A DNA stretch of 33,526 bases, taken from IMG/VR virus record IMGVR_UViG_3300020202_000176, positions 1-33,526 of that record, one strand, 5' to 3'. Of this stretch, positions 6,418-16,247 are shown in pieces (the stretch's first letter is position 1; the number at the start of each line of letters is the position of its first letter). Below the pieces are notes generated by a model. The model was not told the DNA's origin. It saw only the letters and a list, made by a program, of their open reading frames with translations, and ran no database searches. This DNA comes from a virus. Made by a program: the position numbers and the translations under genes.

Positions 6418-7985
6418 CACTTCGCCTCCGTCAACAACTGCGCAATCTCCGGTAGATGCGCCAACTGTTCCAGCTTCGCCCGCTGCGCCCCGCCAATCGC
6501 AGGCCCGTCGATAGGCTCGCCATCCGGCCCGACCTGCGGCGGCACATCGCCCGCCATCTTGCGCCCAGCCGCCCGGTGCGCCTCGATGTTGGCCTGCTCC
6601 TGCTCGTAGTCCAAGCCCTCCTCGCCCGACCACGTTTGCGGCGACAGAATACCCGCTTCCATCTGAATCTTCTTGGCGTTCGCCTCCTCGCCGGGGTCTT
6701 TGGTCGCCAAGTTCGGCAACCTGCATTGAATCTCGCAGACCTCCAAGATATCAGGGGGCAGCTTTTCGCGATCCACGGCCCATTCGACGGCCTCGCGGAT
6801 AATCTCCATGTCGTCGTCGCGGATGATCGCCTGTAGCGCCCCCATCGCTCGCACGACCGGCCCCTCGGCTACCATCGTGCTCGAATAGTTGGCGTTGCTG
6901 GCGTCGGCCGTCAGCATGAACTCCGTGACCTCGAAGATCGCCGCCAAGGCCCGCAGCAGTTCCTTGTTGCCGGACACGATCTCCTCGATGCCCTCGGCGA
7001 TGTTCAGCGCCTCGTATTCCACGGATGACGAGTAATCGAGTGTGGTTTGCGGCCCCCACTTGCGTACGTTGACTTGACGGCCGGTGAGCGGGTCGGTGCG
7101 CTGTCCGGTCGCCACGCTACTGGCAAACGTGCTTGCCCCTGACGAATTGCCCCCGGTGTGCTTGCGCCCGACGCACATGGCCGCTGCCATTTCCGCCTTC
7201 GCCGAGATGTTGTGGAGCGTCCGATGGGATCGAACGATGTTCTTGCGCCCTGCCCACACGAGTGGCACGCCTCGGCGCACCTCCATGTCGACGTTGGCTT
7301 TGAGGTGGTAAACCTCTTCGGCCGGCACGGGCTTTCCGTCGACCCAATACGCTACAACCGTCTCGGCGTCTTCGGGGTCGGTCTGGATGCCGAATTCGTA
7401 GTTCGGGTCGTCGGTGCGCTCCTTCGGCTGGTAGACCTGCCAAGGCTGGATAAAGCGAATAAGTGTCGTGCCGTCCCGCTGTCGGAATCGTCGCCGAAAC
7501 GCCTCGCCGTCACGGTCGTACCGCAGGACGGTATTCCGTTGCCGTAGCATCCACTTATTGACGCGGCGGAAGTCGTCCAAAAAATCTTGCAACTGCTGAA
7601 TCTTGGCCTCGTCGGCTTTTTTTCCCTTGCGCACCGTGGCCGTGTAGATGTGCCCGGTATCCACGGCGTAGTTCTGCCGCAGCTTATGGCCGTTCGTGAC
7701 ATGCTCGCTGTAGGCGAACATGCGGCGGCACGTTTCACGGGCCACGGTCAATTCGTGCTCGTCCACAAAGCCCGAGAAGTCGGAATACCGATTCGGCCCT
7801 GTCTTGCCGACCGTGCCGACCGTGTTCCATTGCGAGCCGTCATCATCCAAGTATCGGTCGCGGGGGTCGACCCAATTACCGAGAAGATCCTGTGACTCAC
7901 GCATCGCCCGCTCTTGGACTTCCTCGAATCGGTGTTGCTCGGATAGCCAGCCGAGAAAGCTGTTGGTTTCGGTCATTGCGATCAT
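6417..7985 (-). CDS. Phage portal protein
   Basis: The 522-residue protein lies between large terminase and minor head genes and has portal-like content. An N-terminal 'SGFVDEHELTVARETCRRMFAYSEHVTNG' region leads into a wing, a long clip/stem region 'LIRFIQPWQVYQPKERTDDPN' is followed by 'VYHLKANVDMEVRRGVPLVW', and an Ala-rich helix 'AIFEVTEFMLTADASNANYS' is close to residue 365. The C-terminus is Pro/Gly-rich, as in the crown. It forms the 12-fold DNA entry ring at one capsid vertex. ATG 7985 overlaps the terminase stop (ATGA) with GAGG 6 nt upstream; ATG 7976 is the alternative. Confidence 0.88.
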   Translation of the reverse strand: MIAMTETNSFLGWLSEQHRFEEVQERAMRESQDLLGNWVDPRDRYLDDDGSQWNTVGTVGKTGPNRYSDFSGFVDEHELTVARETCRRMFAYSEHVTNGHKLRQNYAVDTGHIYTATVRKGKKADEAKIQQLQDFLDDFRRVNKWMLRQRNTVLRYDRDGEAFRRRFRQRDGTTLIRFIQPWQVYQPKERTDDPNYEFGIQTDPEDAETVVAYWVDGKPVPAEEVYHLKANVDMEVRRGVPLVWAGRKNIVRSHRTLHNISAKAEMAAAMCVGRKHTGGNSSGASTFASSVATGQRTDPLTGRQVNVRKWGPQTTLDYSSSVEYEALNIAEGIEEIVSGNKELLRALAAIFEVTEFMLTADASNANYSSTMVAEGPVVRAMGALQAIIRDDDMEIIREAVEWAVDREKLPPDILEVCEIQCRLPNLATKDPGEEANAKKIQMEAGILSPQTWSGEEGLDYEQEQANIEAHRAAGRKMAGDVPPQVGPDGEPIDGPAIGGAQRAKLEQLAHLPEIAQLLTEAK

Positions 7986-9433
7986 ATGTGGCCTCGTGCG
8001 GCGAGAATGTCGGCAACCGGGTCGGGTGCGCAAGCGGGATTGAGCATGGAAAGGCACTGTTGCACGGCCTCTTCCAAAGCGTCAGGGCCGTCGTCGTGTG
8101 CTGCGTGCGGGAACTCGCGGAGCTGATCAACGAGCATCTTCGTACCGGGCGAGCGAACAAACCGCAGTTCATGCGCTCGCAGGTAGGCGTCGAGCCGCTG
8201 AATGCGCAGCTCTTTTTTCATTTGGTGGTTCACCGGCACGACAGTTAGCCCGTGCAGGCGATTACCGGCCAACTGCCGGTCGATCTCGAACCCCACGGCC
8301 TCTTCTTGGAAGTTGTTGGATTCGTACGCCAGCACCCGCCCTCGATACTTGAGCAGCAGCCGCAACGACTCGCTGACGGCCTTGCTGATCGGCCACCGCC
8401 CGAGAATCGCATCCACGTACGCCTTGCCCTCGTAGACCCCCACAAACACCGACGCTTGGAAATCGCCTTTCTTGGCGTCCTTGCCCTTGGACGCATCCAA
8501 GAACACCACCCCCATGTCGACGGCCTCGGGCATTTCGTCGACCCAAAACGGCGGCTCGAAGTATTCGGCGGGAAATTCGGCGTCGTCGTGCTGGCCCGGT
8601 CGCCCTTGATACAGGGCATTCCACCAGTACGTCGAACGGCCTCGGCGCTTCCGCTCCAACGCCTCAATCGGCCATCGCTCAGGCCACAGGGCCTCGCCCT
8701 CGTTGCGCCCTAGCGGATCGTCAAACTCGGCAATCGCCGGGAAGTTGATGACGCGCCACGCCTCGCCGGTCTCTTCGCTCTGCGCGATGAGCCGCCCCGC
8801 AAGGTCGTCGATATGCCACCGCGTCATTACCACGATCTTCTTCGCTCCCGGCTCAAGCCGTGTATCACTCGTCGACTGCCACCAATCCCAAATCTTATCC
8901 CGATAGGTTTCGCTCAACGCCTCTTCGGCGTCCTTTACCGGGTCGTCCACGATCAGCAGGTTTGCCCCGCGTCCAGTGATACCGCCCCCGATGCCCGCAG
9001 TGAGCATCCCGCCCTCATGCCCCGCCACATTCCATTCGTTCGCCGCCCCCGCCGTATCCGACACCGACAGGCCGAAGTAGGCTCGCCCGTGCTCGGCAAA
9101 TAGGTCGCGGCACTTTCGCCCCCACGATTTCGCAAAGCTGTTTCCATATCCGCAGTTGATGATTCGGTCGTTCGGTCGCTTCCCAAGCCAGTACGTCGGT
9201 AGCCATTTGCTGATGTATTCCGATTTCCCGTGCCGAGGCGGCATGGAAATCATCAGGCTGTCAGTTTGCTCCGTTCCCATCAACATGCCCGTTATGATCT
9301 CGTCCATTCGCGCGATGTGCCGGGCGAGCCTCCATCTGCCCCGGCTTGCCGATCTCGCAAACAGGGCCGGGGTGTACGTCGCTTTCCAAAGCTCGGCGTC
9401 GGAGGTATTCGGCGTAATCGGGGTCGAACTCAT
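7982..9433 (-). CDS. Terminase large subunit
   Basis: Both terminase domains are visible. The ATPase has Walker A 'PPRHGKS' at residues 65-71, Walker B 'LLIVDD' with Asp163-Asp164, and a coupling motif 'VMTRWHIDDLAG' at 202-213. The RNase H-like nuclease has Asp313 in 'VFLDASKG', Glu371 in 'YESNNFQ', and the last metal ligands in 'HDDGPDALE' (447, 448, 451). It packages DNA into the procapsid through the portal. ATG 9433 has GGAG 9 nt upstream, and the N-terminal segment 'RWRLARHIARMDEIITG' is typical of the family, so the 173-nt overlap with the small subunit gene seems real. Length 483 is normal. Confidence 0.95.
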   Translation of the reverse strand: MSSTPITPNTSDAELWKATYTPALFARSASRGRWRLARHIARMDEIITGMLMGTEQTDSLMISMPPRHGKSEYISKWLPTYWLGKRPNDRIINCGYGNSFAKSWGRKCRDLFAEHGRAYFGLSVSDTAGAANEWNVAGHEGGMLTAGIGGGITGRGANLLIVDDPVKDAEEALSETYRDKIWDWWQSTSDTRLEPGAKKIVVMTRWHIDDLAGRLIAQSEETGEAWRVINFPAIAEFDDPLGRNEGEALWPERWPIEALERKRRGRSTYWWNALYQGRPGQHDDAEFPAEYFEPPFWVDEMPEAVDMGVVFLDASKGKDAKKGDFQASVFVGVYEGKAYVDAILGRWPISKAVSESLRLLLKYRGRVLAYESNNFQEEAVGFEIDRQLAGNRLHGLTVVPVNHQMKKELRIQRLDAYLRAHELRFVRSPGTKMLVDQLREFPHAAHDDGPDALEEAVQQCLSMLNPACAPDPVADILAARGHI

Positions 9434-10597: not shown

Positions 10598-10996
10598 TCA
10601 GGGACTACGGACATGCTTGCCGAAGTCGAAGCGGGCCGCGTTTGGTTCTACATCGTCCTCACGGCCGTCGTCGTGTTCGCCCTGACCGCGATTTACTTCC
10701 GCCGCCGCCGCTAGCTGCTCCACCAGCGGCTCGAACCACATCGCGGCCTTTCCTTGCCGGTCGAGAATGTCGGCGATGCGCTGCAACTGCTTGGCGTTCA
10801 GCGCGTTCGTAGCCTGAACGCCGTCGATCATGGCGATCTTGGATTTACTCTCGGGCACGAGCACCTCATCGAAGTACCGTGACGCCCAGTGGTGCGCACC
10901 AAGGCCGATGAAGCCCACGAGCACGATAGGGAATCCGGTTTGCCGAATTTCCTTCATCGTCGCGGGTATGTCGATGTTGATGCTCCCGATGGTCAT
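10598..10996 (-). CDS. Hypothetical single-pass membrane protein (132 aa)
   Basis: The start ATG 10996 overlaps the upstream holin-like gene stop (ATGA). Residues about 21-37 (GFPIVLVGFIGLGAHHW) form one membrane segment. The rest is a soluble helix-rich region with 'NALNAKQLQRIADILDRQ' and a very acidic end ('GEHDDGREDD'). Small one-helix proteins next to a holin are often lysis accessory proteins such as antiholins, but this is only positional. Its C-terminus is antisense to a short plus-strand frame that itself looks like a membrane peptide. Confidence 0.62.
   Translation of the reverse strand: MTIGSINIDIPATMKEIRQTGFPIVLVGFIGLGAHHWASRYFDEVLVPESKSKIAMIDGVQATNALNAKQLQRIADILDRQGKAAMWFEPLVEQLAAAAEVNRGQGEHDDGREDDVEPNAARFDFGKHVRSP
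10613..10714 (+). CDS. Possible antisense single-pass microprotein (33 aa)
   Basis: This is the only plus-strand frame that looks protein-like in its own right. It has a short polar start, a 17-residue hydrophobic helix ('WFYIVLTAVVVFALTAIYF') and a terminal RRRR, the textbook layout of a one-pass protein with a positive anchor. A weak AGGGA lies about 9 nt before the ATG. It lies entirely within the 3' part of the minus-strand gene 10598-10996, and no promoter is seen, so it may be a composition artefact. Confidence 0.25.
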   Translation: MLAEVEAGRVWFYIVLTAVVVFALTAIYFRRRR

Positions 10997-11229
10997 GGTC
11001 GCCCGCTCTTATCCCGCAAGGCGTGCTTGCCGCCGACGTAGATCGCAATCGCCCCCACGGCATAGCCCGCCATCTCGCCGTAGTGCTCGATAACGAACTC
11101 ACGAAAGCCGGGCATAGCTACGAGTATCGCCACGCACGCCAGCAGCACCGCGCCGATCTTCTCGGCCGAGTCGATGAGGATCGGCACGATGTCGGAGCTG
11201 TTGAGCTTGAACCGCGGGCTACTTTCCAT
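10993..11229 (-). CDS. Holin-like two-helix membrane protein (78 aa)
   Basis: Residues about 24-40 (GAVLLACVAILVAMPGF) and 53-67 (AGYAVGAIAIYVGG) are membrane helices joined by a short polar loop, with a basic C-terminus, which fits a class II phage holin in size and layout. ATG 11229 has GAGGGGG 8 nt upstream. It is coupled to the next membrane protein gene by ATGA. No endolysin is adjacent, so the lysis role is inferred from topology. It may also be a general membrane protein of the envelope cassette. Confidence 0.6.
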   Translation of the reverse strand: MESSPRFKLNSSDIVPILIDSAEKIGAVLLACVAILVAMPGFREFVIEHYGEMAGYAVGAIAIYVGGKHALRDKSGRP

Positions 11230-11244
11230 TTCACTATCCCCCTC

Positions 11245-11295
11245 AAAAGCCCCTCGGCGCCCCGCGACCACGCAAAGAAAGCGGAACGCCGAGGG
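11245..11295 (-). terminator. Hairpin plus T-run: possible terminator or attenuator
   Basis: CCCTCGGCG (11295-11287) pairs perfectly with CGCCGAGGG (11259-11251). The loop can extend the stem by CCGC/GCGG after a 2-nt internal loop. GGCTTTTG follows on the minus strand. The T-run is only four, so partial termination or attenuation upstream of the holin-like gene is more likely than a full stop. Confidence 0.45.
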
Positions 11296-11298
11296 CGG

Positions 11299-11607
11299 TT
11301 ACACGAAAATCGCAATCAGCGACTCGATTAGCCGAATGATCGCGTCTTGGTTCTTGACGACCCACTCCAGCAGCCACTTGACGAACTCGCCCACATTTCC
11401 GGTCCGGCCACCGCCCTCCAAATAAGCCTCGTAGGCGTTCGCCAAGAACTGCCGCCGAACTCGCGGACGCCTCAGCCCGAGTCGGAAGCGTCGCTTGCGC
11501 TCGACGCCGAATCGCGTTACGCTGCGAAGCGCCCCGACCGCTCGGAATACCTTCGCCTCGTCTTGACCGAGTTGCGGTATGGTCGCGTTCTTTGTTGCTG
11601 CTACCAC
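11299..11607 (-). CDS. Hypothetical protein with basic core and hydrophobic C-terminus (102 aa)
   Basis: It starts at GTG 11607 with GGAG 6 nt upstream. Residues 30-60 are strongly basic (many Arg), and the C-terminal 30 residues form an amphipathic to hydrophobic helix ending 'IIRLIESLIAIFV', which could associate with the membrane. No family is recognised. It sits between a secreted protein and the holin-like gene in the envelope cassette. Confidence 0.55.
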   Translation of the reverse strand: MVAATKNATIPQLGQDEAKVFRAVGALRSVTRFGVERKRRFRLGLRRPRVRRQFLANAYEAYLEGGGRTGNVGEFVKWLLEWVVKNQDAIIRLIESLIAIFV

Positions 11608-11616
11608 TTCTCACTC

Positions 11617-11907
11617 CTATCGAACGAGATACGCTCCGCAGCCCGATTGCACACCGAGCGGAGCGACGAACTGCTGCACCCGAAGCTGCTGCACCTGATA
11701 AGGCACGACGAACTGCTGAACGTGCGGAACCACAACCGGCGCGACGAAGCGCTGCCGAACGACCAGCGGAGCCACGACGGCCTGCTGCTGAACGACGACA
11801 CGTTGCCGGCTCAAGGCCAGCCGAGGAAACAAAACGGCGGCATCGGCAGGGGCGGCTGACACCAACCCCATCGCCAGCGCCACGACAAACAGAATCAAGC
11901 CCTTCAT
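11617..11907 (-). CDS. Secreted Val/Gln/Pro-rich repetitive protein (96 aa)
   Basis: A clear Sec signal peptide covers residues 1-23 (MKGLILFVVALAMGLVSAAPADA) with an ADA-A cleavage site. The mature part is built from degenerate units of Val, Gln, Pro and Ala such as VVVQQQAVVAP, RQRFVAPVVV and VQQFVVPYQVQQ, ending with a Cys. The neighbouring cytochrome-like protein contains related Ala-Pro-Val stretches ('PAVVAPVVAPSV'). ATG 11907 has GGGGAG 8 nt upstream and lies 5 nt after the cytochrome gene. Such proteins are common in planctomycete exported proteomes; the function is unknown. Confidence 0.7.
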   Translation of the reverse strand: MKGLILFVVALAMGLVSAAPADAAVLFPRLALSRQRVVVQQQAVVAPLVVRQRFVAPVVVPHVQQFVVPYQVQQLRVQQFVAPLGVQSGCGAYLVR

Positions 11908-11912
11908 GAAAC

Positions 11913-12875
11913 TTACTCCCCGGATCGACGCCGAATGATCGTCGCGACCTCGTTTAGAATCGCCGCTCGCTGTTCGTCCGTCGGCTGCGGCGCGTTAGCC
12001 GGCGGCATGGTCTTATCAGTGCCGACCGCTTGGGCCAGCTCGTAGAATTTGGCCTTCATGCCCTTGGCCGTTTCGGTATCGTCACCGATGAATAATCCGC
12101 CCTTCGGCGCGGCCACATCGAGCCCGTGGCACTTGCCGCAGAACTGGCCGAGCAGACTCGTCGGCTGCCCAACGACTTGCGGGTGCGGAGTGGTGGCGAC
12201 CGATGAGGTAATCGTGGTTGAACTGGCCGTGATCTTGGCGACCTCGGAGGATGCGAGCGGCAACACCTGCACCTGCCCCTCGGCGTTCCGACTGATCACC
12301 ACGGCTGACGATTGACCGCTGACGTTGTGAGCCGGGTCCAGACCGGCGGCCCGTAGCACCTGGCTAGCCGCTTGACCGGCGGCGAGCCTTTCGACCGTGG
12401 GAGCCTGAAGCTCCAGGGTTCGCTGAGCCGTCGCCTGCGCCTGGGTGTGGGCGAGCGTCGCCGCGTCCTGCCCGGCTTTAACCAACTGCAGCGACTGTGA
12501 AAGAAATGCGGTCGGGTCGAATTGACTGATCGTGAGCGACTGGTAGCCGCCGTTTGAGACGAGCGACGAAGAACCCTGGCCGACGAGTGGCGCCGGGTAC
12601 GAGTTCTGGATCACGTAAACATTCGAGACGCTTGGAGCGACCACTGGCGCCACCACGGCGGGCTTGTAGTAGTAGCACGCCGTGCCGTACCTGTTGCAGC
12701 GGTTGCAGGCCGAAGCGTCGGCGGCCGTCAGGGCGAGTATCGCGAAGCCGATTGCCAGCGTACCCAGCTTTCGCGGTCCCTTCGGCTTTCGGCCGATGCT
12801 CAGCAGCAAGAGGGCCAGTGCGGACACTGCCGCCGTGATCAGTAAAAACACACCCACAACCTTGAACAGCAACAT
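11913..12875 (-). CDS. Membrane-anchored c-type cytochrome-like protein (320 aa)
   Basis: ATG 12875 (GGAG 7 nt upstream) is chosen over TTG 12890. Residues 4-27 and 37-56 are hydrophobic and would anchor or export the protein; a Cys cluster 'CNRCNRYGTAC' follows at 57-67. A long Ala/Gln/Ser-rich region with a possible coiled coil (about 125-175) leads to a C-terminal cytochrome c domain at 238-320. There CGKCH at 246-250 is a CxxCH heme c site, and 'DKTMPPANAPQPTDEQRAAILN' supplies the distal Met290 and the last helix of a class I cytochrome c. Established family features are CxxCH and the MPP loop; covalent heme and electron transfer are inferred. It is coupled to another CxxCH gene. Confidence 0.8.
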   Translation of the reverse strand: MLLFKVVGVFLLITAAVSALALLLLSIGRKPKGPRKLGTLAIGFAILALTAADASACNRCNRYGTACYYYKPAVVAPVVAPSVSNVYVIQNSYPAPLVGQGSSSLVSNGGYQSLTISQFDPTAFLSQSLQLVKAGQDAATLAHTQAQATAQRTLELQAPTVERLAAGQAASQVLRAAGLDPAHNVSGQSSAVVISRNAEGQVQVLPLASSEVAKITASSTTITSSVATTPHPQVVGQPTSLLGQFCGKCHGLDVAAPKGGLFIGDDTETAKGMKAKFYELAQAVGTDKTMPPANAPQPTDEQRAAILNEVATIIRRRSGE

Positions 12876-12879
12876 TCGC

Positions 12880-14421
12880 TTACTCCACAACTAGGGCCGG
12901 CCGCGTCTCAACTGCGCGGCGGGCCAATTCGACATAAACGGCATCGAAATCGTCTCGTTTGATCGACGCCCCGTTTTTCAACAGGGCGATCACGATGTCT
13001 TCGGCTTGGCCGGCGGTCGGCGCCGGAACCAACTGCCGCAGCGTCGCCCGTGCCCGCTCGGCCGGGACTCGCACGCCCAATTCGAGGCAAGCTTGCTGCG
13101 TGTCGATCCGCCTGTATCGGTAGCCGTGGTAAACAGTTTTGAGCTTCGCCCCGAGCTGCTGAACGCTCGTCGGTCCGTCGGCCGTCACCGGGTAGTCGGT
13201 GAGTTCGTCGACCTTGCGGATGTAATCGCGACGCGCCCGGCCCAAAACGCCATCAGGCTCATCGATACGCTCGCCGTATCGGCCGGCGACGATCGCCACC
13301 GCCTCGGCCCGCGTAAGCGTCTTACCGCGGTAGACGATTTCATCGCCGAAGTAGTCGGCGTCGGCGCCCTGCAATAACTCCAAGTCGTTGCGAGCAGTCC
13401 GATAGCCGTTGTCCGTCGAGTGACACAAGATGCACGACATGCCCATTTCGAGTTCTTTGGTGTGGCCGTCCGGTTTCGTCGAATCGGCAACGACGTCGGG
13501 TGGCGCGACTCGTTGTAGATTTCCGGCACCGTCGGCAAGCAGTCCCTCCCACAGGCCGTTCGGAAGCGGCACCAGGGCCTCGGATGCGTCGGACCTGAAC
13601 TCGATCAGGTTGCGTACGAACTGAGCGTCTGGCCGGGTCGTCGAATCCTTCAGGTCGAACGTCACGGCGACCGGCAACCGGCTCGCCACGCCGTAAGCGG
13701 TGAGCACCGAGCGACCCTTGCCGGTGACATCGGACGCCAGCAAGACGGCCCCTTTTTCGCCGCGGAGATCCTTCGTTTCCCCAAAGAAAAAACCACGCTT
13801 CGCCAAGTGGTCGCCGAGCTTCTTCGTGAAATCGATCTGGCGAAACTCCGGGTACTTTCCGCGAGCGCTTGTCAAAAGCTGTTCGATTAAAAAGTCTGCA
13901 CGGTAGATGCCGCCCGTTGACTGCGTTAGTTGTGCAACGAGCACGTCGATTCGCTCGGACTTATCCGGATCCGACACGTGTCGAGCGAGTGCGGCCTGTA
14001 GGTGCGGCGCCAGCACCGCCCCCGATCCGACGAGATTCACTTCGGGAACATGAAAAAACGGGTCGCGAACCGCCAGTGAGTTTATGTCCTTGCGAAGCCG
14101 CTCAAGTTGCTCGGGCTCCGGGCAAAGCAATCGCAAGTTGTAAACGACGAGCCATCCCCCGGCATGCTGATCGCCACGAACTAATGTCGTCGTATGGGAC
14201 AGCGCCGAGTTGGCGGCGAAATCCATCAGCCCGATCCAATCGCGATCACCCCAAGGCGGAATCCATGCGGCCAAGAGATACGGCCGATCGGCCTCTTGGT
14301 ATTTGAGCGCAGCTTCAAAGTGCCAACCGACGGCATCCGCTTCGGTCGGAAGCAGTTCAAGCTTCGTCGGCTTCGCCGGTTCGGCGGCGAGAAGTGCGAC
14401 GGCGAGAATCAGAGCGTTCAT
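12880..14421 (-). CDS. Secreted CxxCH protein resembling planctomycete cytochrome-domain proteins (513 aa)
   Basis: Residues 1-16 are a short signal peptide (MNALILAVALLAAEPA). The protein then has a large unrecognised N-terminal region. Around 285-335 it shows a segment known to me from planctomycete exported cytochrome-type proteins: 'LPNGLWEGLLADGAGN', 'APPDVVADSTKPDG' and then 'GMSCILCHSTDNG', where CILCH at 330-334 is a heme c attachment site. No obvious MxP distal ligand follows closely. The C-terminal 180 residues are helical. ATG 14421 overlaps the upstream stop (ATGA). It likely acts outside the cytoplasmic membrane. CxxCH could instead bind metal, so heme loading is an inference. 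Confidence 0.75.
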   Translation of the reverse strand: MNALILAVALLAAEPAKPTKLELLPTEADAVGWHFEAALKYQEADRPYLLAAWIPPWGDRDWIGLMDFAANSALSHTTTLVRGDQHAGGWLVVYNLRLLCPEPEQLERLRKDINSLAVRDPFFHVPEVNLVGSGAVLAPHLQAALARHVSDPDKSERIDVLVAQLTQSTGGIYRADFLIEQLLTSARGKYPEFRQIDFTKKLGDHLAKRGFFFGETKDLRGEKGAVLLASDVTGKGRSVLTAYGVASRLPVAVTFDLKDSTTRPDAQFVRNLIEFRSDASEALVPLPNGLWEGLLADGAGNLQRVAPPDVVADSTKPDGHTKELEMGMSCILCHSTDNGYRTARNDLELLQGADADYFGDEIVYRGKTLTRAEAVAIVAGRYGERIDEPDGVLGRARRDYIRKVDELTDYPVTADGPTSVQQLGAKLKTVYHGYRYRRIDTQQACLELGVRVPAERARATLRQLVPAPTAGQAEDIVIALLKNGASIKRDDFDAVYVELARRAVETRPALVVE

Positions 14422-14600
14422 CCGTTCCCCCGCGCGATTCGCTCGTCTAGCCGCTTTTGGTCCCGTCGCGCCGCCGCCTTCGTTTTCGGTAGCGCTGCGT
14501 ACGCTTGCTTAACGCCAGAATCCTTCGGGGCATCCACCAGCAGCGACGGGTGGACGCGCGGCCGATGCTCCGACGGATCGACGTAGGTAAAGTCGGACAT
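14418..14600 (-). CDS. Hypothetical small polar protein (60 aa)
   Basis: ATG 14600 overlaps the stop of the membrane protein gene upstream (TGATG), and its own stop overlaps the next start. The protein is hydrophilic, with Pro and His in the first half and a Lys/Arg/Ala-rich helix in the second. No signal peptide or motif is seen. Coupling on both sides shows it is a real member of the cassette. Confidence 0.6.
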   Translation of the reverse strand: MSDFTYVDPSEHRPRVHPSLLVDAPKDSGVKQAYAALPKTKAAARRDQKRLDERIARGNG

Positions 14601-14806
14601 CAACGCGTCACCTCGTCGATTACTGCCCGCACCGCATCGTCGGCAGCTTCGCCCAAATTTTTCGCGCCTGCGCCGGCTGCCTCCACGCCGTTAAAGATCA
14701 CCCTCTCAACCCAGGCAAACCCCGGCGCCTCCGCGACGGCCGCACCGACGAAGGCCAGCGGCACGCCTACGACTCCGACGACTGCCTGTGCTAAAAAGCT
14801 GAGCAT
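14600..14806 (-). CDS. Small membrane protein (68 aa)
   Basis: ATG 14806 overlaps the protease stop (TAATG), with GGAGG 8 nt upstream. Residues about 4-27 (FLAQAVVGVVGVPLAFVGAAVAE) are strongly hydrophobic, followed by a second weaker helix and an Ala/Glu/Asp-rich tail. It could be a membrane anchor or an exported helical peptide. No family is recognised. Confidence 0.62.
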   Translation of the reverse strand: MLSFLAQAVVGVVGVPLAFVGAAVAEAPGFAWVERVIFNGVEAAGAGAKNLGEAADDAVRAVIDEVTR

Positions 14807-15438
14807 TAAAGCGCCCTCCTCGCGTCGAATTCCCAAGCGCCGCCGCCAACCATGAGGCGAATTTTCTCGGCTCCGCCGGCCGGCGGGTTGACGGGGGGCG
14901 GGGTGGTCGGAGCCGGCGCACCGTACCGAGCCCGAGCCTCCGTCACGTCACCGTTTCGCGGCAGGGCAATCGAGGTCGAGTAAGTCGGCGCCATCAGGTT
15001 GCCGTCGGAGATATGCCCAATCCCGATCGCGTGGCCGATTTCGTGGGCCATCACTCGGCCGAGATCGATCCGATTGGCCGGCGGGTTGGCCGAAAGCGTC
15101 CACGCTTCGCCGGTGTCGTACTGCTGCCCAAGCCGCCGGATGAAGCCGGGCGAGAAACCGATGGGCAGCTCGGATTGCGCCAGAATGCCGTTGCGACCAT
15201 CGATCAAGCCTTGGCTGACGGCGATGTTTGCGGTGCGCGAGTTCGTCGTGTGCGTGAGCCGCAGGCCGCAGACGTCGTTCCAGGCTTTGACCGCGTAGGC
15301 GAGCGCATCGGCGAACGGCACGCCGCCAATCGATCCTTCGGCGAAAATCGACACGTCAAGCATCGGCCACTTGGCCGTGACGTCACCCAGGTGATCGGGT
15401 ACGCCGCAGATTTTCACGCCGTCGAAGGTGTCGGCCAT
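14806..15438 (-). CDS. Matrixin-type metalloprotease (metzincin)
   Basis: The active site 'HEIGHAIGIGH' at residues 132-142 is the zinc motif HExxHxxGxxH, with Glu133 as base, and 'NLMAP' at 148-151 is the Met-turn, so this is a metzincin of the matrixin (M10) type. The N-terminal part (24-75) has the usual 'W....V.I.....F..A...AVKAWNDVCGLRL' strand-helix pattern. The C-terminus has a Pro-rich linker (175-190) and a short tail. It lacks a signal peptide at ATG 15438, but the 30-codon signal-peptide frame upstream is in the same frame and is separated only by TAG-CCG. GGAGG lies 8 nt before the ATG. It may cut envelope or surface-layer proteins of the host at release or entry. Confidence 0.87.
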   Translation of the reverse strand: MADTFDGVKICGVPDHLGDVTAKWPMLDVSIFAEGSIGGVPFADALAYAVKAWNDVCGLRLTHTTNSRTANIAVSQGLIDGRNGILAQSELPIGFSPGFIRRLGQQYDTGEAWTLSANPPANRIDLGRVMAHEIGHAIGIGHISDGNLMAPTYSTSIALPRNGDVTEARARYGAPAPTTPPPVNPPAGGAEKIRLMVGGGAWEFDARRAL

Positions 15439-15441
15439 CGG

Positions 15442-15534
15442 CTAGACCTCCACCGGCGGGCTCGGCTGCGAGCCTGCCGGCGACACCAGGGCCAGGGCGA
15501 GGAATGGGGCTGTGAGTAGGGTGAGGTACTTCAT
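15442..15534 (-). CDS. Orphan signal peptide ORF (30 aa) in frame with the metalloprotease
   Basis: ATG 15534 overlaps the stop of the ligase-like gene (ATGA). The product has Lys2, a hydrophobic core (YLTLLTAPFLALALVSPAG) and a Pro/Ser spacer 'SQPSPPVEV', which is a Sec or lipoprotein-like leader with nothing behind it. It ends at TAG 15444-15442; one CCG codon later the protease ATG follows in the same frame. It may be the true N-terminus of the protease, reached by amber readthrough or lost by a recent nonsense change, or it may be a separate leader peptide that couples translation. Confidence 0.65.
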   Translation of the reverse strand: MKYLTLLTAPFLALALVSPAGSQPSPPVEV

Positions 15535-16247
15535 GCGGGTCTCCAATTCCAAACGGGATCAAACCCGCTTATTTCGGGCAAATAGCGACCGACGACATGG
15601 CCGGGGCGCACCCACTTGGCAAGCCATTCGACCTTGCTGCCGTTTTCAAGGCGAAATACGCAGCCCTCGGGGCGGCCTTCGGCGCCATGCCCTGACGTGC
15701 AGAGGTTTGCCAGCATGTCAGGCCAGCAGATTGGGCCGCCAGAATCGAGCACTCGCGGCGTCACGAACTCATAGGCCAGAACGCGCGACCAGAACTCCGA
15801 CCGCAATGCTCGCTCATCGCCGCGCATCAGATCGAAAGCCACGAAGGGTTCGTGCTGTAGTTCGTACTTGGTTCCGCACGCTTGGGCCAGCCATTCGCCA
15901 CACAGCCGCTCCCCGTCGTTGAGAAGCCGGCTAAACCGCCGCATGTTCTCGGGCTGGCGCACCCACGAATCGAATAGGTGATGCTGCTCATGCGGGCTGT
16001 CCACGCATCGGTAGCCGGCACGAATCAGCGGCACGATCTCCGAGCCGATTCGGACAACGGCGACACAGGTGCCGTCTAGTTTTTCCTCGCAGCAGACCCA
16101 ATCGCGGCTACTCCGCAATCGCTGGGTCATAATCCGAAAGCAGCCCTCGTCGATGTGGTGGTCGCCGGGGCCTAGCTGGCTTTCCGGGATGTGCGGAATG
16201 CTTCCGTACGCCCGTTTCTTTAGCGGCTTTTCAGCCTTCGTTGTCAC
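15531..16247 (-). CDS. RNA-ligase-type covalent nucleotidyltransferase
   Basis: The motifs of the ATP-dependent ligase and capping superfamily are in order. Motif I is 'EEKLDGTCVAVVRIG', with nucleophile Lys56. 'GERLCGEWL' around 112-120 supplies the motif III-like Glu118, followed by 'FVAFDLM' at 135-141. Motif IV is 'PEGCVFRL' near 193-200, and motif V is 'KVEWLAKWVR' at 205-214. At 238 residues it has only the nucleotidyltransferase core and no OB fold, which suits the RNA_ligase (Rnl2-like) family better than DNA ligases. It probably seals nicks in RNA or DNA. The start is GTG 16247, overlapping the upstream microgene stop (GTGA). Substrate preference cannot be read from the sequence. Confidence 0.82.
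   Translation of the reverse strand: MTTKAEKPLKKRAYGSIPHIPESQLGPGDHHIDEGCFRIMTQRLRSSRDWVCCEEKLDGTCVAVVRIGSEIVPLIRAGYRCVDSPHEQHHLFDSWVRQPENMRRFSRLLNDGERLCGEWLAQACGTKYELQHEPFVAFDLMRGDERALRSEFWSRVLAYEFVTPRVLDSGGPICWPDMLANLCTSGHGAEGRPEGCVFRLENGSKVEWLAKWVRPGHVVGRYLPEISGFDPVWNWRPA

Follow-up and report, generated by a model that had tools for sequence, protein, structure and literature searches.

A recurrent three-gene phage cassette pairs a predicted exported class I cytochrome c with a second CxxCH protein of no known family

The DNA analysed here (the window) is a virus record of 33,526 nucleotides with its genes on the minus strand. RecT and RecE genes are present, indicating that the record is from a tailed phage; most tail genes are absent from the window. 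Two adjacent open reading frames, overlapping by 11 nucleotides, each encode an exported protein with a CxxCH motif: the large P0002 (513 amino acids, running from 14421 to 12880, minus strand) and the small P0001 (11913..12890, minus strand; 325 amino acids from a TTG at 12890). A better start for P0001 is the ATG at 12875, which lies behind a GGAG and was also chosen in an earlier note on this DNA. That note had described the two proteins as exported neighbours carrying CGKCH and CILCH, with the strand unstated; both open reading frames are real, both motifs are confirmed, and the plus-strand readings are packed with stop codons. Its placement of the pair between a matrixin and a terminase was also correct: a matrixin-type (M10) metalloprotease of 210 amino acids is encoded at 14806..15438 (minus strand; Pfam PF00413, E=1.7e-13) and the terminase at 7982..9433 (minus strand; phrog_38, E=1.3e-97).

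The remaining neighbours are all on the minus strand too. Just upstream of the matrixin lies an RNA ligase gene (15531-16247; PF09414), and the interval between protease and large gene holds a small hydrophobic open reading frame of 78 amino acids (14600..14836), of uncertain status and with no family match. Directly downstream of the pair is the third gene of what we call the cassette, encoding an exported, repetitive, Val/Ala/Gln-rich protein of 96 amino acids (11617..11907). Three small proteins follow, two of them with clear membrane segments: a protein of 102 amino acids (11299..11607) with a hydrophobic/amphipathic C-terminus (WLLEWVV...IIRLIESLIAIFV) and a weak match (E=0.014) to phrog_4214, a family of unknown function; a membrane protein of 92 amino acids (10993..11271), a holin candidate from hydrophobic segments seen by eye; and a protein of 132 amino acids (10598..10996) with a membrane segment and a probable coiled coil, also seen by eye, which is a candidate holin or i-spanin. 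The last two have no family match. Terminase, portal and capsid genes come next. One of the 46 window proteins scanned has a weak DsrC-like Pfam match (E=0.00023).

The large gene is present in 14 copies in 13 phage records of 15-595 kb. Its first relatives, found by protein search, were on two IMG/VR contigs (53-54% identity), followed by LR756511, a deposited huge phage of 595 kb; alignment-based scans added the loci L005, L006-L012 and L050 (a 254 kb contig). No relatives came from scanning the viral collection with only the small protein or with its alignment. The search for the pair in other phages suggested in the earlier note thus revealed a fixed order of three genes (large CxxCH, small CxxCH/Met-Pro, small exported Val/Gln/Phe-rich protein) that is complete in 12 of the 13 records. 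The exception is L011, where intervening genes part the pair and the contig end cuts the small gene. Large and small genes overlap or sit at most 10 nucleotides apart in most loci, and in all 12 intact loci the small gene is followed, immediately or after a short distance, by the gene of the repetitive protein. Pairwise distances of large and small proteins are strongly correlated (Mantel r=0.895, permutation p=5e-5, 11 loci), indicating that the two proteins travel and diverge together. Almost all cassette proteins of all three types start with a Sec-like hydrophobic N-terminus; these export calls are from simple hydropathy, with some start codons picked by hand. The cassette has no match to a defence system in PADLOC, and we rejected a defence system as its identity.

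At identities of only 20-60%, the heme ligands are nearly the sole invariant residues of the two families, joined in the large protein by a Tyr, an Arg, a Glu and an Asp. When the sequences of P0001 and P0002 were shuffled, CxxCH arose in 0.08% and 0.04% of trials, respectively. Together with the conservation of the motif in 13 of 13 large proteins and, accompanied by Met-Pro, in 11 of 11 small proteins, this rules out a chance occurrence.

P0001 consists of N-terminal membrane segments, an A/Q/S-rich linker and a C-terminal class I cytochrome c domain (approximately residues 244-320). CGKCH (residues 251-255, codons at 12126..12140, minus strand) would provide the proximal heme ligand; the predicted distal ligand is the Met of Met295-Pro-Pro (Met290 if counted from the ATG), about 40 residues further on, with the Met295-Pro296 codons at 12003..12008 (minus strand). 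Both sites are invariant in all 11 aligned members of the family, where CxxCH lies near the N-terminus of the cytochrome domain, and apart from one or two others, the invariant residues of these proteins are essentially those of the heme site (Cys, Cys, His, Met, Pro). An N-terminal hydrophobic segment was found in all 12 small proteins examined, in most cases with an AxA-like site (again by simple hydropathy). PSCyt1 is detected above the Pfam cut-off in the small proteins of five of 11 records. Searched with the family profile, QcrC cytochrome c subunits are matched at E ~1e-4 and cytochrome c6 more weakly, with CxxCH and Met-Pro aligned. These matches bear out the class I cytochrome c domain that the earlier note had proposed. 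The window's own P0001 is under the PSCyt1 cut-off and has a sub-threshold Cytochrome_CBB3 match only (Pfam, E=0.0036); it is assigned to class I cytochrome c through its family profile. The AF2 model of P0001 has a mean pLDDT of 51, too low for use, and gave no Foldseek match. The small cytochrome at L009:10149-11036 has a second CxxCH (CYACH, residue 42) in its N-terminal region and may be a diheme protein.

PSCyt1 is abundant in Planctomycetota and Verrucomicrobiota, where it is a domain of the PSCyt/PSD proteins. The hosts of the cassette phages are probably Planctomycetota or other PVC bacteria, an assignment made from the PSCyt1 domain only.

The large protein is of a different kind. Its single CxxCH is CILCH at residues 330-334 (codons computed to lie at 13420..13434, minus strand), and the motif is invariant in all 13 aligned members at identities of 20-60%. 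The invariant positions are Tyr190, Ser230, Arg237, Glu281, Gly300, Pro308, Asp313, Cys330, Cys333, His334 and Gly449; among them is no Met and no His other than that of CxxCH, and His320 is present in 8 of 11. Distal Met or His is not required in five-coordinate hemes, and the lack of a conserved one suggests that the heme of the large protein is five-coordinate or otherwise ligated. Pfam, PHROGs, NCBIfam, PADLOC and the PDB sequences contain nothing that matches P0002. The earlier note had recognised in it an exported planctomycete cytochrome; this did not hold, as there is neither a library match nor a conserved distal Met/His, and for the same reasons we use the word cytochrome for the large protein only as a presumption. 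Membership in a known planctomycete family was rejected, with no match in any library searched. Two pattern-based scans of GTDB, which remote homologues could escape, found no relatives either, and plasmids yielded none.

The AlphaFold model of P0002 (pLDDT 73.6, pTM 0.77) drops below a pLDDT of 50 at residues 335-356, directly after the CxxCH. Foldseek searches of PDB and BFVD with this model, weak as it is around the motif, returned no match, so the fold may be new; structure alignments were made without the LR756511 members. The large protein represents a new family. With one CxxCH, no conserved distal Met/His and invariant Tyr190, Arg237, Glu281 and Asp313, it is more likely a heme enzyme or a redox/ligand-responsive protein that the small cytochrome would serve. 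One member (L002:4270-6003) contains an inserted DnaJ-like CxxCxGxG zinc-finger stretch that is absent from its relatives.

Many cassettes have a protease gene as neighbour, and its family changes. According to Pfam, M10 is found beside the cassette in the window and in L012, M12A in L003, Trypsin_2 in L006 and S8 in L002 and L009; L004 has a C1-like gene below the cut-off, and C1/C39-like genes in L010 and L013 were judged from sequence. No protease adjoining the pair was seen in L005, L007, L008, L011 or L050 (contig end). Nine of the 11 cassette-associated proteases have no signal peptide, among them the window matrixin, which has no N-terminal hydrophobic segment and ends with a Pro-rich linker and a short C-terminal strand. 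The protease is usually the only member of its family in the record (S8 and M10 are single per record); LR756511 has one more C1 protease elsewhere. In LR756511, a cysteine-protease-like gene precedes both copies of the large gene. The second copy (L013:6883-8789, LR756511.1, at approximately 362 kb) is solitary, with no visible small cytochrome or repetitive protein, and the gene directly preceding it encodes an exported C39-like protease. In L006-L008 a single matrixin, MMP-like with a PRCGCPD cysteine switch, is encoded 25-50 kb from the cassette.

Several further features of these proteases were observed. An MMP-like protein is found in three large phages, on contigs of 146-408 kb (L032:6540-7454; L033:7334-8248, minus strand; L034:8154-9119, minus strand). 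It has a PG-binding-like prodomain at the N-terminus, together with a matrixin domain and a 'cysteine switch' of sequence PRCGCPD. Its gene adjoins that of an exported Q/V-rich protein, which in one of the phages is similar to the N-terminal part of the small cytochrome. Proteases of different families (window:14806-15438, L010:3168-4103, L032:6540-7454, L033:7334-8248 and L034:8154-9119) end alike, with a linker rich in Pro and then a short C-terminal strand that is similar between them (e.g. ITGIDSLDQVKINGKPVADFTLI), possibly a common tail for sorting or docking. The exported trypsin-like protein at L006:11305-12069 is perhaps inactive, as both the catalytic His and the catalytic Ser seem to have been substituted (LTANL, GDLGGP).

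The cassette lies among late genes. Terminase, portal and capsid genes are nearby in the window, capsid genes in L002, portal and capsid-like genes in L005 and L012 and a Tail_P2_I tail protein in L006-L008. Pfam identified no peptidoglycan hydrolase among the approximately 160 proteins of five records, some of them incomplete (window, G001, G007, G008, G009), and no cassette neighbour matches a holin or spanin family, the holin candidates being recognised by eye. Proteins with hydrophobic helices like the one of 102 amino acids in the window are encoded near other cassettes, a likeness likewise judged by eye. Repeated hydrophobic/amphipathic-helix proteins (e.g. IEKWLPVLLQLLSLFGL) adjoin the cassette at L004:6691-7140, L050:381-1061 and L012 (approximately 6630-7028), and in L003:2267-3493 such repeated helices form the C-terminus of an astacin-like protease. 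It is possible that these repeated-helix proteins are membrane-active lysis peptides.

With its leaderless hydrolase, its small membrane proteins and its exported helpers, the late region resembles a lysis module in its logic, a protease replacing the peptidoglycan hydrolase. For this reason we favour, tentatively and at somewhat less than an even chance, an exported heme-c redox pair that acts on the envelope at the end of infection; in phages of PVC hosts, it would belong to a late module for envelope attack (lysis/egress). The pair, co-inherited and carried by many unrelated tailed phages, would be exported by Sec; the small class I (His/Met) cytochrome c of PSCyt1 type would serve the large heme enzyme or redox/ligand-responsive protein, and late in infection both would act in the periplasm of the host, joined by the repetitive exported protein. 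Endolysins cross the host membrane through a holin, and the leaderless, exchangeable protease, as the hydrolase of the module, would presumably do the same. These proteases could equally be virion components. We know of no lysis mechanism that involves cytochromes.

A more specific proposal, which we regard as unlikely, makes the large protein an exported heme enzyme of a new class, which would oxidatively modify or cleave an envelope polymer of PVC bacteria or else unlock the protease. The small cytochrome c would then supply it with electrons, and proteolytic plus redox chemistry would take the place of a peptidoglycan endolysin in phage exit.

The genes could instead be auxiliary to respiration, with a soluble cytochrome c and a heme oxidoreductase keeping up or redirecting periplasmic electron flow while host proteins decay. 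In the small protein the His/Met ligand pair is that of electron carriers, and QcrC and cytochrome c6 are among its profile matches; moreover, phage genes for electron transport are known (PMC3474794). We nevertheless find this explanation doubtful: close homologues in cells are the norm for auxiliary metabolic genes, but the two GTDB scans turned up none of the large protein, the genes lie amid late genes, and neither the constant repetitive third partner nor the nearby proteases would be accounted for.

It is unlikely that the exported set remodels the surface, altering or masking PSCyt1-like envelope components to block other phages or to stabilise the envelope. The export of all three proteins, the resemblance of the small protein to a host domain type and the occurrence in unrelated phages, as expected for a trait linked to host range, are in line with such superinfection exclusion, but genes of this type usually encode single small proteins and are expressed early or from a prophage, the cassette has no counterpart in PADLOC, and the strong conservation of the heme ligands would be left unexplained. 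Quite improbable, in our view, is a role in entry, with the products joining the particle and crossing, together with the protease, the proteinaceous surface of the next host. The position of cassettes within or beside head and tail modules (L002, L005, L006-L008 and L012) would fit, but Sec signals take proteins out of the cytoplasm, where virions are assembled.

CxxCH by itself is not diagnostic, since three other open reading frames of the window contain it; these are leaderless and zinc/HNH-like in appearance. Given these three and the large protein's lack of a conserved distal ligand, the motifs of the pair could be zinc or dithiol sites and the proteins no cytochromes at all. We hold this to be highly improbable, because the motif occurs singly and in proteins that are exported, a matching Met-Pro and a cytochrome profile match go with it in the small family, and large and small genes are co-inherited. 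A mis-assembly joining host genes to a phage contig, named in the earlier note as a possible refutation, can be dismissed: the small domain is of planctomycete type, but the same cassette recurs in 13 phage records of differing sources, including the deposited LR756511, and the GTDB scans found no bacterial relatives of the large protein.

A dedicated heme-c pair would thus be carried, with its heme ligands intact, by phages of tens of kb up to 595 kb. Shared and conserved in this way, it suggests that a recurring step has gone unrecognised in the infection of bacteria whose phages have received little study, and the cassette may offer a handle on PSCyt1 domains as well as on phage exit from cells with unusual envelopes.

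Phage genes for electron transfer are usually borrowed from hosts. The cassette resembles the known auxiliary electron-transport genes in being phage-borne and tied to electron transport; these have cellular homologues, whereas the cassette is a fixed set of three genes and its large protein has no bacterial relative that we could find. Viral genes for a cbb3 oxidase subunit have been reported (PMC3474794), and in another study cytochromes were not observed in the phages studied there (PMC8115048). No phage cytochrome cassette is described in the literature searched, which was mostly without subscription papers and preprints. The large family and the three-gene arrangement appear to be new, matching neither known families nor the descriptions searched; the cytochrome domain of the small protein, taken alone, would be of a known kind. 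It is similar to PSCyt1, 'Planctomycete cytochrome C' (PF07635), in CxxCH, a Gly-rich stretch and Met-Pro. Host PSCyt proteins have no known function (PMC5615132). The cassette differs from host PSCyt/PSD proteins in being phage-borne and in combining the domain with a protein of a new family and an exported protein of repetitive sequence, and Pfam detects no PSCyt2 or PSD domains in the pair or the window. With class I cytochromes c such as QcrC, cytochrome c6 and c55X, the small protein shares CxxCH and a Met about 40 residues on, but it has a long A/Q/V-rich linker, is phage-borne and is the partner of a protein with an unmatched fold. Finally, the cassette has the late location, the leaderless hydrolase and the nearby small membrane proteins of holin-endolysin-spanin modules; it differs from them in that a protease of changing family would serve as the hydrolase and in its two putative heme-c proteins.
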